The notes under the pieces are model-generated. The model was not told the origin of the DNA. It did no database searches and was given only the letters and a program-made list of their open reading frames with translations. Of a stretch of 64,000 bases of DNA, positions 2,171 through 38,465 are shown piece after piece. Position 1 is the stretch's first letter. Every line of letters begins with the position of its first letter. Made by a program: the position numbers and the translations under genes. Source of the DNA: Blastococcus mobilis (GTDB lineage Bacteria > Actinomycetota > Actinomycetes > Mycobacteriales > Geodermatophilaceae); assembly GCF_900188025.1 (NCBI RefSeq), contig NZ_FZNO01000014.1, forward strand, positions 62,001 through 126,000. Reading direction: 5' to 3'.

Positions 2171-2209
2171 GTGCGCCATCAGGGACTCGAACCCCGAACC
2201 CGCTGATTA
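2171..2209 (-). repeat. Left att site: tRNA-Lys 3'-end copy
   Basis: This 39-bp stretch is identical to the 3' half of the complete tRNA-Lys gene at 36447-36519, from GTGCGCCATCAGGGACTCG through the T arm to CTGATTA in the anticodon arm. It then diverges (GAAGTC in place of AGAGTC). It has no anticodon 5' half or acceptor 5' strand, so it cannot make a tRNA. Same-orientation copies occur at 17694 and 36446. Duplicated tRNA 3' ends of this kind mark the outer ends of elements inserted by tyrosine integrases, and this one is the outer left end of the 34-kb mobile region. Confidence 0.9.
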
Positions 2210-2424
2210 GAAGTCGCGTGAGTTGATCACTCCTGGATCTTGTGGAGAAGTGTTGTAAACGGGCAGGTCAAGGCATGCATCGATTGATGGCCAAGGTCGA
2301 AGATCGTCGGTGGATGCCGGGCGTTTCTGATGAGTAAACGGTGACTAACCGATGGCCGACGTCCGTATGCTGTGGCCCCCGAACGTCGCTCTCCGGCGCG
2401 ACCGTGACTCCGAGCGGGGGCCTC

Positions 2425-2940
2425 GTGGCAAGACCCGCATCTGGAACTCGGCACCCACGGGCGCGTCCGGATCTACCCGGACCCCGGCCGGATACCGCGC
2501 CGTGTGCCGCTACCGGGACTGGGACGGAGTCACGCGCCTGGTCCAGCGGCAGGCCAAGACCAAGGGCGCGGCTGAGCGCGCCCTCGCCCGGGCTGCGAGA
2601 CCGGGGGCGATCGGGGAGGGACCACGCGATCACGCCCGACACCAAGATGGCCGTGCTCGCGGAGAAGTGGTTCAGCGAACTCGAGGGCAGAAGTCCGTCG
2701 ACCATGCAGGCATACCGCGATCGGCTCGATCGCCAGGTCCTCTCGGCGCCAGGCAACGTGCGGGTGCGTGAGATCAGCGTCGGTCTGCTCGATCGTCACC
2801 TGGCGGCCGTGCGGGCATCGCACGGCGCGGCGCTGGCGAAGATGACCAAGTCCGTCATCAGCGGCATGTGTGGCCTGGCCTGCCGCCACGATGCCATGAA
2901 GTCCAACCCCTGCCGGGACGTGGCCCGCATCCCCAGCCGG
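2425..2940 (+). pseudogene. Tyrosine integrase, N-terminal half, multiply frameshifted
   Basis: Three reading frames must be joined to read one integrase N-terminus: LELGTHGRVRIYPDP, then AGYRAVCRYRDWDGVTRL, then DRGRSGRDHAITPDTK and a core-binding domain (AVLAEKWFSEL, SPSTMQAYRDRLDRQVL, ALAKMTKSVISGMCGL, NPCRDVARI). This needs at least three frameshifts. At about 2935-2945 the homology stops and the 3' end of the opposing relaxase gene begins, so the whole catalytic domain (Arg, His-x-x-Arg, Tyr) is missing. It sits next to its att site, as the better preserved integrase of element B does. The product is certainly non-functional. Confidence 0.85.
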
Positions 2941-5900
2941 GCGTGCTCGCGGGCATGCTGGGTGGTGTCGGCGGCGGCGCGCAGCGCGGCGTGCTCGGGG
3001 TGGGCGTGTTCGGCGGCGCGGCGCGCGGAGGCGTTCAGCGCCGCCGACAGTGCGGGTCGATCGTCGAACCAGCCGGCGACCCGGGCGAGCTGCCCGGGCT
3101 CAGTCGGCAGCGCCGGCACGTGCGGGCGCCACCGGTTGGCCCAGTCGACCATCTGCTCGCCCGCTCGCGCGACGGCGGCCCGCCGGAGTCCGAGCCGGCC
3201 GGGCCCGTCGAGTACGACTCGCGCCGCCGCGTGGGCGGCGCCGCGTTCCTTGTCCCAGCGGCGGAGCAGCGTGTCGCGGAGCCGGTCTGCCTCGGCGGCG
3301 ACCCTCGCCCCGCTGGTCTCAGCTCGCTGCTGCGCCTGTTCTGCGGCGAGGGCGGCCCGCCGGTAGGTGCCGGTGAGGGCGGCCAGCCGGTGGGCCCAGT
3401 CTGGCTGGAGCACGATGAGCTCCCGCAGCGCCTCGCGGATCGGCTCCTGGTAGGCGAGCCGGTCCCGGCAGCGCTGCTCGGCCGTCCATGCCGCGTGCAG
3501 CTCGGTGAGTATCTGGACGAGCGGTCGGGGTGGGGCGTAGCGGGCGGCCTCGTCGGCGGCGAGCTCGGCGGCGAGCTCGGCGGCGTGGGCGGGGCCGAGG
3601 TCGGCGCGGTGGCGGGCGAACACCGCCATCCACTGCCTGCGGGCCTCGGCGAGATCAGGAGCGACGAGGTGGGCGGTGTTGGCGGTGCGCCCGCGGGTCA
3701 TGCCGACGTAGGCGGCCGCGGCGCCGGTGTGCTCGCCGATGACTACGTGCGCCGCGGTGACGGTCCAGGTGTCGCGGTTGGCCACGCCCAGGTCCCGGTC
3801 GTTGCGGCGGGTGGCGATCTGGTCCCCGGCGCCGATCCGCTGTCCCGCCTTGGTCGCGACAACGCTCGTGTCGTCGACGCGGCCGTCGGCCACCCGCCGG
3901 GCCCGAATGGCGGCGTTGAGCGCGGCGGCCTGCTCGCGGGTGTCCACCACCACGGCCACCGCCCCCCGTCGGCATCCGCGGCCGAGGCAAGCAGGGCCAG
4001 CGACTCCTGCCGGGCGACAGGATCGGCGTGCAGGCAGATCTGGCCTCGAGGTGCAGCGCGTCGAACACCGCCTTCGGGTCGTCGTCGCGGCGCATGGCCA
4101 GGGTCAGCTCGGCGTAGTCGGTGTCCGGCACCGTCCGACCGGCATCGTCGGTGCGGACGAACCGGTGCACCGCATCCAGGGTCAGGCAGGCGGCCGGGTC
4201 GGCTGCGCGGAGGGCGAGGTCGAGGACGCCGCCGCGGCCGACCGCGGGCAGCTGGTGGCGGTCGCCGAGCAGGGCGACCCGGACCTGGCATTCGTCGGCC
4301 ACGGTCAACAAGCCGCGGGCCGTGTCCTGGTCGAGCATGCCCGCCTCGTCCACCACCAGAAGATCCCCCGGCCGCAGCCGTGCTCCGTCGCCCGTCCCGG
4401 CGTAGACGGTGCCGGTGACGGGGTCGGCCTGCCCGACGGTGAGCCGAGTCCAGGCGCCGTCGCCGGTCCAGCGCCAGCCGTGCTGGAAGGCCAGCCAGGC
4501 CGCCGAGCCGGTGGCCACGCCGACCTCTCCGGAGGCGACCTTGGCCGCCTTCAGCGTCGGGGTGACCACCATCAGCCGGCGTCCCCGGTCGGCCATCAGC
4601 TTCCGGGTGGCGGCGAGGGTGGTGGTCTTGCCGGCGCCCGCCGCGCCCTCCACCACGACCAGCGGCCGGTCGCCGGCGAGCGCCGCCGCGGTGGCGGCCT
4701 GCCCGGCATCCAGCTGGTCCCGGCCGGCCGCCAGGTCCGGCCGGAGGTCGGCGTCAGACCCGCGATGGGTGCCGCGGGCGGCGAGCCGGGCGGCCAGGTC
4801 GGCCTCGACCTCGACCACCGCCGGCGAGGTCCACGCCCGGACGTGCTCGGGCAGGGCAGCGTGCTCCAGCAGCGGCACGCAGCGGGTCAGGGCGCGGGCG
4901 GTGAGGTCCTCGGCCAGCTCGGCGCGGACCCCGGCCTCGACCACCATGCCCGCGCCGGCGATGAGCCGTTCGGCCTCGACGCGGAGGTCGGCGGCGTTCC
5001 ACGCCGAGCGGCCCGCGGCCAGCCGGATGAGGATCTGCTCCACGGTGCGGTCGCGGTCCAGCGCGCCGACCGAAGTAGGCCGCAGGGCGACCGGCTGCTC
5101 CGGGTCACGGTAGCCGAGCGCGGCCAGTTCGCCCCGCCACCGCGCGATCAGGTCGGCGCTCGAGCGGGGGGTGACCTTGTCCGGGCGGCCGTCGGCCCAC
5201 GCCCGGGTATCCCACGCCCACCGCCGCGCCGGGCCCGGGTGTTCGCCGGGGTGCGCCGTCATCCAGTCGCGTTCGTAGCGGTCCCGATTGCGGCCGATCT
5301 GCGCCGCCCGCGCGCTGAACGGACCGATGTACTCGGCGAGCTCCAGTATTTCTCCAGTTGCATCAACGGTGTAGCCGTGGGCGGCCAGCGCGGCCTGGAA
5401 CTGCGGATCGCAGGCGACCGCGGCGTGGCCGATCCCGTTGACGGCAGCGAGGAAGTCGCGGACGCCGACGGTGTGCAGGCCGCGCCATTGCCCGGCCGCG
5501 AAGACTCGCGCGTTGATCTGCAGGTGCAGGTGCAGGTGCAGGTGCAGGTGCAGGTGCAGGTGCAGGTGCATATGCCGGTGCGGATCTCCGGCGCGGGAGG
5601 TGTAGTGTCGCACTGTCACCGCCTCCAGCACCTCGACGGGTACCTGCACCTGCCCGCCCCGCGGGCCCACCCGGGTGGTCGCATGCCCAGTGAGCCAGCC
5701 GATGATCTCGGTGGCAGCATGATCTTGGGCCGCGTCGTAGGCGGCGGCGATGTCCGGGTGCACCGCCGCCGCCAGCGACCAGGATTTCGGGCCGTTGACC
5801 ACCACCTCGACGAACCGCACCGCCCGCTCATCGGTCCGCAGCCGCCCGCGCGGCTCACTGGTGTCAGGATCCCGGCCGGCCACCCAGGTCTCGTAGGTCT

Positions 5901-6069
5901 CGCCGGTCAGCGCCGCCCGCTCCTCCACTCGCCCGCCGAGGCCCGCGAAACGGCGGGCCAGGCCGCTCCCCTCGGCCAGGTAGTAGTCATCCGCCCGGCC
6001 CCGGTCGGCCTCCAGGTACTGCCGGGCGGCGGCCGGCGGGCCGGCGTAGACCTTCATTCCGCCATGCAA
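2941..6069 (-). pseudogene. MobF (TrwC-type) relaxase-helicase, frameshifted and 3'-truncated
   Basis: A conjugative relaxase that nicks oriT and unwinds DNA. It starts MHGGMKVYAG. The relaxase domain carries GPKSWSLAAAVHP and the histidine triad region RHYTSRAGDPHRH, followed by an (HL)8 run (see repeat at 5521). The RecD-like helicase domain has a Walker A motif EGAAGAGKTTT, Walker B VVDEAGML and LLGDRHQLP. Two losses of frame, near 4050 and in a G6 tract near 3965, separate VFDALH, RGQICLHADPVARQ and VAVVVDTREQAAALNAA. The C-terminal coiled region ends abruptly near 2941 at the junction with the integrase relic. A close paralogue lies at 30330. The product call is strong; it is inactive as written unless the shifts are sequencing errors. 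Confidence 0.9.
5521..5568 (-). repeat. CAGGTG x8 hexanucleotide repeat in relaxase active site
   Basis: Eight perfect tandem copies of CAGGTG. Read on the minus strand within the relaxase, they encode eight His-Leu dipeptides between DPHRHM and QINARV. The paralogue at 30330 has only DPHWHLHLQ at this place. The family's metal-binding motif is histidine-x-histidine here, so the repeat inserts about seven extra HL units, in frame, into the catalytic metal site. It is a coding microsatellite, not a CRISPR: there are no spacers. Confidence 0.97.
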
Positions 6070-6120
6070 TTACCAACGCCACCCAACAACGGCCATCACA
6101 TCACCCCGTTAAATGCCGGT

Positions 6121-6172
6121 GGGCCCCGCCAGGCGGGCCCGAACTACCCATATTGGTAGCATGCGTGCCGTC
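6121..6172 (-). other. Candidate oriT/control region upstream of relaxase A
   Basis: On the minus strand, before the relaxase start, are GACGGCACGCATGCTA (6157-6172), an inverted repeat CTACC/GGTAG (6144-6159, overlapping it by 3 bp), and a GC hairpin (6121-6140). The same order (the 16-mer, a short inverted repeat overlapping its end, then a GC hairpin) precedes the relaxase of element B at 30229-30279. MobF relaxases usually nick an oriT next to their own gene, so this conserved block is the best candidate for oriT or a relaxase operator. The nic position cannot be placed from sequence. Confidence 0.5.
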
Positions 6173-17693: not shown

Positions 17694-17736
17694 GTGCGCC
17701 ATCAGGGACTCGAACCCCGATCCCGCTGATTAAGAG
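17694..17736 (-). repeat. Internal att site between elements A and B
   Basis: 43 bp matching the tRNA-Lys 3' end (36446-36488) with one mismatch in the T-arm stem region (GATCCC for GAACCC). The match runs through CTGATTAAGAG into the anticodon loop, 4 bp further than the copy at 2171. Its position between two relaxase-integrase sets is the best evidence that two elements inserted one after the other at the same tRNA gene. Confidence 0.9.
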
Positions 17737-17899
17737 CCGCTATTGGACGCCATTCTGCGCCCATTTCGGATCGTGCATCCCTGCTGCTCAGGGGGCTGTT
17801 GCGCGTCGCTGACCTGCGGTAACGTCGGCGACGAGGTGGTGGCGGGAATGTTGGTGACAATTAGCCGACGTCGGCTGAGAATGGCTGGAAACGGCTCTG

Positions 17900-17920: not shown

Positions 17921-17999
17921 CCGCAATTCTTCGCCCTGCTGATGGCTGCGATCGGCAGGCGGCGGCGGGCGCCTGCGGCAGCGTCGTGGGGGCCTGACG

Positions 18000-19132
18000 G
18001 TGGTCAGCATCGCCCGCCGGCCCAACGGGCAGTGGCGGCCCCGCTACCGCGATGCGGCCGGCAAGGAGCACGCCCGGCACTTCGACAAGAAGGCCGACGC
18101 GCAGGCGTGGCTGGACTCGGTCACCACCTCGGTGCTCACCGGCGCCTACGTCGACCCCAAGCGGACCCGGGTCACCCTGGCCGAGTGGGCCGGCCAGTGG
18201 CTGGAGAGCAAAGTCGACCTCAAGCCGACGACCTACCGCTGCTACGAGGTCTCGCTGCGGGTGCACATCCTCCCGACCTGGGGCCCGGTGCGGCTCGGCG
18301 ACATCACCCACCAGGGCATCGCCGCCTGGGTGGCCAAGGTGTCCAGGTCGGGGAAGAGCGCCTCCACCGTGCGCCACGCCCACCGGGTGCTGTCGCTGAT
18401 CCTGGGCCTGGCGGTGCGCGACGGCCGGCTGGCCCGCAACCCGGCGGTCGGCGTGCCGCTGCCGCGGACGGTGCGCGGAGAGCAGATTTTCCTCACCCAC
18501 GCGCAGGTCGACGACCTGGCCGCGGCCGCCGGCCGGGACCGGCTGGCCATCCTGTTCCTGGCCTACACCGGCGTGCGGTACGGCGAGATGGCCGCGTTGC
18601 GGGTGCGCAACCTCAACCTGCTGCGCCGGCGGGCGCTGATCGCCGAGGCGGTCGTCGACGTCAACGGGCACGCCGTGTTCGGCACGCCGAAGAACCACCA
18701 GCGCAGGCAGGTGCCCCTTCCGCGGTCCTCGCCGAGGAGCTGGCGGCGCACGTGGCCGGCAAGGCGCCGTCGGACTTCGTCTTCGCCGCGGAGAAGGGGG
18801 GCGTGCTGCACCTGCGCAACTTCCGCCGCAAGAGCTTCGACCCCGCCGTCCGCGCCGCCGGCCTGGACAAGCTCAACCCGCACGCGCTGCGGCACACCGC
18901 CGCCTCGCTGGCCATCGCCAGTGGCGCGAACGTCAAGGTGGTGCAGACCATGCTCGGCCACCAGTCGGCGACGATGACCCTGGACCTGTACGGCCACCTG
19001 CTGAACGACCAGCTCGACGAGGTCGCCGACGCGATGGACGCGGCGCGCGCCGCCGAGGCGTCGGCGCGTCGCCCGGCAGCAACCGTCGCGGCGCTGCCCA
19101 CGGGTCGCTCGGTCGGCGGCCCGGTCGCATGA
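18000..19132 (+). pseudogene. int: Tyrosine integrase with one frameshift
   Basis: Site-specific recombinase of the phage/ICE type, adjacent to its att. Start GTG 18000. The N-terminal arm-binding and core-binding regions read in the first frame (VSIARRPNGQWRPRYRD, FDKKADAQAWLDSV, SASTVRHAHRVLSLILGLAV). The catalytic domain begins LFLAYTGVRYGEMAALRV (Arg). Near 18718 one base is missing, and the rest reads in the next frame: VLAEELAAHVAGK, LNPHALRHTAASLA (His-x-x-Arg), TMLGHQSATMTLDLYGHL (His and Tyr nucleophile). All catalytic residues remain, so the gene is one base from functional; a sequencing error cannot be excluded. Expected length about 377 residues. Confidence 0.9.
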
Positions 19133-30228: not shown

Positions 30229-30279
30229 GACGGCACGCATGCTATCAAGATAGGCAGGCCGGCCCCGTTTCGCGGGGCC
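30229..30279 (+). other. Candidate oriT/control region upstream of relaxase B
   Basis: It contains GACGGCACGCATGCTA (30229-30244), identical to the block before relaxase A, then the inverted repeat CTATC-AA-GATAG (30242-30253) and a GGCCCCG/CGGGGCC hairpin (30261-30279). The conserved order in two elements, about 50-100 bp before each relaxase gene, supports a function in transfer or autoregulation. The nic site is not identifiable. Confidence 0.5.
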
Positions 30280-30329
30280 ATCGTCGTTTCTCGGGGTGAC
30301 GTGTTGGACATTGTTGGATCGCGTTGAGA

Positions 30330-32416
30330 ATGCACGGCGGAATGAAGGTGTACTCCGGCGCGCCGGCGGCCGCCCGGTGCTATGTGGAGGCCGACCGGGG
30401 CCGGGCGGACGACTACTACCTCACCGAGGGAACCGGGCTCGCCCGACGGTTCACCGCCACCGATGGCCGGGTGGCTGAACTGGGCCCGCTGAGTGGCGAC
30501 GCCTATGAGACTTGGGTGGCCGGGCGGGACCCGGAGTCCGGTCAGCCACGGGGCCGGCTGCGTTCCGACGCGCAGACGGTGCGGTTCGTGGAGGTCGCGG
30601 TCAACGGGCCGAAAAGCTGGTCGCTGGCGGCGGCTTTGCACCCGGACATCGCCGCGGCGTACGAGGCGGCGCAGGGCCGAGCCGCGGAGCAGATCGTCGC
30701 CTGGCTGTCCGAGCACGCGACCACCCGGATCGGGCCGGCCGGCGGTCAGGTGCAGGTGCCGGTGGAGGTGTTGGAGGCAGCGACGGTGCGGCACTTCACC
30801 TCCCGTGAGAACGATCCACACTGGCACCTGCACCTCCAGTTCCTGTCCAGGGTGTACGCCGCGGCCAAATGGCGTGGCCTGCACACCGTCGGCGTCCGCG
30901 ATTTCCTGAACGCGATCAACGGGATCGGGCACGCCGCGATGGGCACCGACCCGGAATTTAACGCCGCACTGGCCGCCCGCGGCTACACCAAAGACGCGAC
31001 AGGAGAAATACCGCAGCTCGCCGACTACGTGGGCCCGTTCAGCGCCCGGCACGCGCAGATCGCGCGGAATGTGGACCGCTACGAACGGGAATGGACCGCC
31101 GCGCACCCCGGCGAAACCCCCGGCCCCGCGCTGCACCGCGCCTGGGACGCCCGCGCCTGGGCCGAGGACCGCCCGGAAAAGGTCACCCCCCAGCCCGGTG
31201 CGGCCGTCAGCGAGCGCTGGCGGGCCGACCTCGCCGAGCTCGGCTTCCGCGCCGCCGCGCAGCCCGTGGTGCTGGCACCCGCCCCGGTCGGGGCCCTGGA
31301 CCGGGACGCGCTCGCGGCCCGGGCGCTGACCCGGCTGGCTGCCGCCCGCTCGGCCTGGAACGCCGCAGACGTGCGGGGAGAGGTGGAGCGGCTGATCGCG
31401 GCCGAAGGCGTCGTCGTCGAGGCGGCGGTGCGCATCGAGCTGGCCGAGGACCTCACCGCTCGCGCCATGAGCGAGTGCGTGCCGCTCCTCCAGCGGGACG
31501 CGGTGCCTGAGCACATCCGGGCCTGGACCTCGCCACTGGTCCTTGCCGTGGAGGCCGACCTGACCGCCCGACTGACCGCCCGCCACGCCACCGCGGCACC
31601 TGACACCCGCCTGACACCCCCGCGGACCGACAGCTGCAGGCCCGCCACCGGCAGGCCTGCCACGACGCCGAGCAGGCCCGGGAGCGGGCCGACGCCAGCG
31701 CCGCGACCGTCGCCGCCGACGCCGCGAAGGTGCGCGACCGGCTGCTGGCCGCCTGGGACGCCCAGCGTGGCGACGCCTCTTCTGCCGCCCGGATCGTGCA
31801 GGTCGGACCGGGCCGGTTCGGCCGCCACCGCGGCGCGGTTACTCAGGCAAGGGAGCAGCTGACCGACTGGGCCGACGGCTGGCGGGCGCAGCTGCCGGGC
31901 CTGCCCACCGACCCGCAGCAGATCGCGGCGGTGGCCGGCTGGTTCGACGACCTGCCCAAGCTGTGGCGAGCCTTCGACGTCGCCGCCCGTCGCGCCGCCG
32001 AGGCGGCGCATCCCGAACGCGCCACCTTGGCCGCGGCAGCCGAGGCCGCCCGCGCCGCCGCCGAGGTGGCGGGGCGGGCGTTGGCAGAGGCCCGTCGCGA
32101 GGACGACGAGCGCGCTGCCCGCTTCGGCAATCTGGGCGACACCGCTGACCCCGCCACCCGGCTCGACGACGCCGAACGCGATCTCAGCGCCACCCGCGAG
32201 CAGTTGGCCGCCACCCGCACGCGCATCGCCACGCTGCAGGGCGAGCCTGCAGGCCGGCGCGGCCCCAGCCAGCTCGACCGGCAGCGCCCGCGCCCGGTCC
32301 CGGCGAAGCAGCCCATCGCGCCGGAACGGCGCCTCAGCCAGCCACGGCCCGAGGACCTGCGCCACCTCGGCTACCTCCAGCACCGCTCCGGCCCCGGCCG
32401 CGGCATCGGGCGCTGA
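30330..32416 (+). pseudogene. MobF relaxase lacking its helicase domain
   Basis: Starts MHGGMKVYSGAPAAARCYV. The relaxase domain is complete and in frame: GPKSWSLAAALHP, RHFTSRENDPHWHLHLQ (metal histidines), GLHTVGVRDFLNAINGIGH. The frame continues to about 31610 (LAVEADLTARLTARHATAA). There the sequence jumps to the C-terminal coiled region in another frame (AEQARERADASAATVAADAA, VGPGRFGRHRGAVTQAREQ, AGWFDDLPKLWRAFDVAARR), with the whole RecD-like helicase (Walker A and B, about 450 residues) deleted. The first frame ends at 31862. A truncated relaxase of about 430 useful residues might still nick DNA but could not unwind it. Paralogue of the relaxase at 2941. Confidence 0.88.
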
Positions 32417-36445: not shown

Positions 36446-36519
<74 letters not shown>

Positions 36520-37943: not shown

Positions 37944-38465
37944 GTGGACACGTGGGTCATCGTCCTGATCGTGGTCGTCGCCGTCGTGCTGGTGGCAGTG
38001 CTGGCGCTCGCCCTGGCCAAGCGTTCGCGGGTGGGTAAGGCCCGTAAGCGGGAGCAGGCGCGCGAGCACCTGCAGCAGGCGCAGGTTCGCGGCGCCCAAG
38101 CGGAGAAGGAGCAGGCGCTCGCCGAGGAGCAGGCCGCCCGTGCGCGCCGCGAACGAGCCGAGGTGCAGGAACGGACGGCGCTGGCCGAGCAGGAAGCGCG
38201 TGAGCGCGCGGCGCGGGCCGGAGAGGCCCGCGCGGAGGCCGACCAGCTGCGCGCCAAGGCCGAGAAGCTGGCGCCGGACGTCGTCCACGACGGGCACTCC
38301 CGACACGACGCCGACCGGGCCGGTCACTCCGGCCAGACGGGTCACTCGGGGCAGACCGGTCAGCCGGGTCAGCCCGGTCAGCCCGGTCAGCCCGGTCAGC
38401 CCGGTCAGCCGGACCGGACCGCGCACCCCGAGCAGCCTGGAGGAAGCGGCGCGACCCGCCGCTGA
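37944..38465 (+). CDS. Membrane-anchored coiled-coil protein with GQP repeats
   Basis: 173 residues, GTG after GAGGAGGGG. One N-terminal helix (WVIVLIVVVAVVLVAVLALA), then about 75 residues of Ala/Glu/Gln/Arg coiled coil (KRSRVGKARKREQAREHLQQ...), then a His/Gly-rich tail with six Gly-Gln-Pro repeats. No enzyme motif. Such proteins are common in actinobacteria and resemble envelope stress or DivIVA-like scaffolds only in general form. Function unknown. Confidence 0.7.
   Translation: MDTWVIVLIVVVAVVLVAVLALALAKRSRVGKARKREQAREHLQQAQVRGAQAEKEQALAEEQAARARRERAEVQERTALAEQEARERAARAGEARAEADQLRAKAEKLAPDVVHDGHSRHDADRAGHSGQTGHSGQTGQPGQPGQPGQPGQPGQPDRTAHPEQPGGSGATRR
38358..38411 (+). repeat. 9-bp coding repeat, GGTCAGCC(C/G) x6
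   Basis: Six tandem 9-bp units encode Gly-Gln-Pro in the tail of the coiled-coil protein. The inner four are identical. In-frame unit length means copy number can change without breaking the gene. Confidence 0.95.

Follow-up and report, generated by a model that had tools for sequence, protein, structure and literature searches.

An expanded in-frame CACCTG repeat beside the metal site of a broken MOBF relaxase gene in Blastococcus mobilis

Results

The relaxase gene and its lesions

The window, a 64,000-nucleotide stretch of the Blastococcus mobilis genome (contig NZ_FZNO01000014.1, positions 62,001 to 126,000), carries on its minus strand an 804-aa ORF with a TTG start (3655..6069), which is the N-terminal part of a disrupted MOBF/TrwC relaxase-helicase gene. 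The product matched the Pfam TrwC relaxase profile (PF08751, E=3e-52), as expected of a MOBF protein, and scored above the cut-off of NCBIfam MobF model NF041492. A TraA-like C-terminal part continues out of frame on the same strand (2796..3959). Comparison with intact relatives showed two deletions of one base each, near 4050 and near 3965 (3954..4059, minus strand), that break the frame, which is lost after residue ~670; intact relatives have the C-terminal helicase in one frame with the relaxase, and this copy does not. These deletions place the gene among pseudogenes or decaying genes and, judged from its sequence, it is a broken MOBF relaxase rather than a working one. We considered a programmed frameshift and rejected it: the two deletions in the window and the one in a related copy (genome G058) affect different bases, and the site is not conserved. 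In pairwise comparisons, the relaxase domain of the window copy had a dN/dS of 0.17, equal to that of intact pairs; the decay, or any loss of function, would therefore be recent. Like TrwC of R388 and TraI of F and pKM101, the protein has the TrwC domain, a histidine triad with 11+2 spacing and a DPxxHxH motif; however, it is only about 20% identical to them. After the ligands, the window family has HLHLQ where TrwC/TraI have an HTHxVV-type strand, and the window copy differs further by 14 extra residues at this point and by its broken helicase.

The hexanucleotide array

An in-frame (CACCTG)8 array (5521..5568, minus strand) encodes (HL)8 at residues 168-183. On the plus strand, it reads as eight perfect CAGGTG units followed by CATATG at 5569-5574. 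The protein sequence is VRH155YTSRAGD162PHRH166MH168L(HL)7Q, i.e. D162-P-H-R-H166-M-(HL)8-Q184. Compared with the usual DPHRHLHLQ, the DPHRHM(HL)8Q of the window copy contains seven additional units, or 14 additional residues. Among 100 dinucleotide-preserving shuffles of the window, none had four or more tandem CACCTG units. The preliminary description had reported both this eight-unit repeat with its product and a paralogue of short form in the same window, and both observations hold. The paralogue at 30330 (30231..31862, plus strand) is internally deleted, and its motif is DPHWHLHLQ.

Position of the insert relative to the metal site

The HUH metal-site segment (5566..5607, minus strand) includes H155 (5607-5605), D162-P163, H166 (5574-5572) and H168 (5568-5566). 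It aligned with F TraI H-DTSRDQEPQLHTH, and in the alignment of the family profile with F-plasmid TraI, H155/H166/H168 matched the HDTSRDQEPQLHTH ligands. The 11+2 spacing of these residues, a further MOBF feature, is the same as that of ligand histidines H149/H160/H162 in TraI of pKM101 (PMC9868005). Because this spacing is kept, the seven extra units follow the last ligand and do not lie between ligands; by alignment, they are placed in the beta-strand after the last metal ligand. Since the repeat is H-L, any later His pair of the array could equally occupy the ligand positions. The repeat had been described as lying exactly inside the catalytic histidine motif; it does adjoin the metal site, but the insert comes after the ligands and leaves their spacing unchanged.

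A short-form relative is predicted to form a beta strand at residues 163-172 (pLDDT about 80). The window copy was modelled with pLDDT below 50 across residues 157-178, and its strand resumes at 181. TrwC/TraI was the first match of both models in a PDB comparison; both were built from shallow alignments (34-35 rows) and are silent on enzyme function. A single-sequence query of the PDB gave no match, and a profile query gave a match.

Surroundings of the gene

A block (6070..6170, minus strand) containing CGGCACGCATGCTACC and hairpins extends to the start codon. It is common to the family copies compared and is a candidate oriT or leader. The block was observed at 6070-6170 (minus), 30231-30330 (plus) and loci L071-L184 and L199-L218, with a sharp start CGGCACG[C/A]ATGCTACC and two hairpins, followed by a MOBF relaxase. 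Chromosomal units of conserved block plus MOBF relaxase are multi-copy, and a single genome has as many as 10. A tyrosine integrase follows the relaxase in most of the longer loci that were read, and a tRNA (Arg, Ala, Lys or Met) frequently lies beyond it. These units look like a family of integrative and mobilizable elements (IMEs) with MobF relaxases. They resemble IMEs in having a relaxase and tyrosine integrase near a tRNA and many chromosomal copies; however, a review from 2017 names no canonical IME whose relaxase is MobF (PMC5704250), and transfer and the full ends of the units described here are putative. No direct att repeat was found at distances up to 600 bp from the conserved left block, so the block can be regarded only as a possible element end.

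In the window, a tRNA-Lys (CTT) gene (36446..36519, minus strand) is a likely integration target. Its 3' end constitutes att-like copy 3 (36446-36491). Att-like direct repeat copy 2 (17694..17739) is identical to the tRNA 3' end at 43/46 positions, as is copy 1 (2171..2216; 39 bp perfect), which adjoins the relaxase remnant at its 3' end. A frameshifted tyrosine integrase (17942..19132, plus strand) belongs to the same family as those adjoining intact relaxases, and tblastn for the family integrase gave this frameshifted gene as its sole match (18000-18979). An integrase fragment near att copy 1 (2440..2900, plus strand) matched Phage_int_M weakly. The window relaxase has no adjoining integrase of the type found in family elements. 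Of the features of an IME, att-like repeats and a tRNA are present, the integrases are frameshifted or fragmentary and the boundaries are putative. The threefold direct repetition of the tRNA-Lys 3' end points to elements accumulated in tandem, and the region is read as a probable wrecked accretion of elements at tRNA-Lys. A tandem array of CCGGTCAGC (about 10 copies) is present at 38320-38410.

Census of relaxase copies

We searched 115 genomes of the same bacterial family (probably Geodermatophilaceae), with each species represented by a single genome, and obtained about 140 relaxase-domain matches in 51 of them; the window genome has five related copies. A copy was scored as intact if it had a single open frame of 900 aa or more. 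The motif was readable in 124 unexpanded copies, of which 106 were intact and 18 disrupted. The motif was exactly DPH[RW]H[LV]HLQ in every intact copy, and length variation among these was 0/106 (upper 95% bound about 2.8%). One disrupted copy (L118) has DPHWHLYLQ, with Tyr in place of a ligand His. In genome G019, a relaxase (L056, L057) is apparently split by an insertion sequence with an 8-bp duplication GGTCTACG and ends GGCTCTTC/GAAGAGCC.

Only four expanded copies were found. The window copy has seven additional units and the two single-base deletions. A second copy in the window genome (G000:C45) has one additional unit and three frame changes, and the G058 copy has one additional unit and one frame change. 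In Geodermatophilus obscurus (G049; NZ_FRDM01000039.1; G049:C14), two contigs stop within the array, each with at least five units; they probably belong to one gene, as one covers positions 1-181 and the other positions 180-943 of a single reference relaxase. The remaining relaxase frame of G049 is open and the adjoining integrase is frameshifted; expansion is thus not always paired with other lesions of the relaxase. Of the four, all but the G049 copy are frameshifted. Disruption in expanded versus unexpanded copies gave Fisher p=0.004 without G049 and 0.014 with G049 counted as intact, values that are indicative because the copies are related. The preliminary description had taken invariant length in all relatives as evidence against its reading; three relatives do vary, but these variants lie in damaged genes or elements, and intact copies are invariant.

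With the motif columns left out, a FastTree phylogeny showed the expanded copies scattered. Four changes were needed, at least three of them forced by well-supported branches, and all four copies fell within one 28-copy clade (hypergeometric count 0.002). When 84,980 species were scanned for the expanded motif, leaving out records near the window, there were four matches, of which only that of G. obscurus was a relaxase; those in Rubrivivax, Arthrobacter and Cellulomonas do not resemble relaxases. (CACCTG)4 occurred at four loci in the 115 family genomes: two are the relaxase motif, one is a stretch read as noncoding and one encodes a PAPAPA linker. Contig breaks at the motif in genome G016 were considered as a further array and rejected; the contigs share end sequence and have opposite ends at residue 95, indicating a collapsed repeat. 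A search for literature on relaxase repeat expansion or Geodermatophilus relaxases found nothing relevant.

Discussion

The array is probably a coding microsatellite that formed when replication slipped in a relaxase gene undergoing decay; we infer both slippage as the mutational step and the loss of activity. The normal codons CAT-CTG-CAC-CTG-CAG contain two near-identical hexamers. Because the short motif already amounts to two near-copies of the unit, a single slippage event could seed an array, and slippage would add CACCTG units in frame. Each unit contains a TGCA palindrome, through which a looped-out strand may pair with itself, aiding slippage; the single strands of the array were predicted to fold through TGCA with -6.8 and -8.4 kcal/mol (z -3.6 and -1.4). 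A search for MutS_III gave no match in the window genome and was positive in 11/14 control genomes, and actinobacterial NucS is reported to be unable to correct indels (PMC8228993). With no MutS found and NucS blind to indels, such loops would escape mismatch repair. The product would keep its metal ligands, but nicking is most likely weakened or lost through the 14 extra His-Leu residues in the HUH strand. The expansion may be tolerated because the gene was dying or was killed by the expansion itself, and a length change would last only in copies that are no longer maintained.

Two readings had been offered at the outset, namely that the repeat tunes relaxase activity in 6-bp steps or that it is drift in a dying gene. 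The second is supported by the constant length of the 106 intact copies, by the frameshifts in three expanded copies, by the position of the fourth, in G049, beside a frameshifted integrase, and by the two further deletions in the window gene. The first finds a precedent in mutL of Salmonella and E. coli, in which GCTGGC x3, encoding LALALA, is a 6-bp repeat that switches mismatch repair via slipped-strand mispairing (PMC2955026). Both mutL and the window array are in-frame hexanucleotide repeats that encode a dipeptide repeat in a catalytic region and can change copy number without a frameshift. A contingency locus, whose unit number reversibly switches or tunes relaxase activity as in mutL, would also fit the position of the in-frame hexamer next to the catalytic motif, the independent expansion of the same codons and the otherwise open G049 relaxase. 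However, in mutL the three-copy state is conserved and functional and switching has been demonstrated, whereas in the window family functional copies have one fixed short form and variants occur in damaged genes or elements. The main test of the dial is variation among functional alleles, and unit number was constant in the 106 intact copies; moreover, a normal form of two imperfect units would make a poor switch, and most expanded copies are in frameshifted genes. A reversible in-frame dial is not supported, and we consider a contingency locus highly improbable. The same low likelihood applies to a broader version, in which these relaxases have an inherent slippage site in their HUH codons, in-frame expansion turns element transfer off or adjusts it reversibly within host populations, and the frameshifted copies were damaged only afterwards. 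Because every intact relative has the normal length, the pattern looks like the outcome of slippage as mobile-element genes decay, and not like an activity dial.

An assembly or PCR artefact, the true array being shorter, is scarcely more probable. The draft assembly comprises 88 contigs and includes five related relaxase copies, and short arrays are prone to stutter; however, the 48-bp array lies inside a 127-kb contig with unique flanks, contigs of a different genome record are interrupted at the same array, and there are two further copies with one additional unit. Equally unlikely is an expansion tolerated or selected in a still working truncated relaxase, e.g. through extra metal binding or altered substrate choice. 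Retained ligand spacing, the low dN/dS of the relaxase domain and a frame open across this domain and the helicase start agree with such a protein, but no intact relative uses the insertion, the helicase is frameshifted, no intact integrase adjoins the gene and the array is modelled at low confidence. The number of expanded copies, only four, the G049 relaxase, open apart from its array, and the low dN/dS (0.17) of the window domain count against the reading of slippage in a decaying gene.

Slippage in a decaying gene would make this locus a clear natural case in which a coding microsatellite has arisen several times at a single catalytic motif, in a host without detected MutS, because the codons were pre-seeded with repeats. 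A census of intact versus broken copies offers a way to sort such expansions into adaptive or neutral. The case also advises caution, since His-rich expansions in catalytic motifs of mobile elements can mean decay, not regulation.
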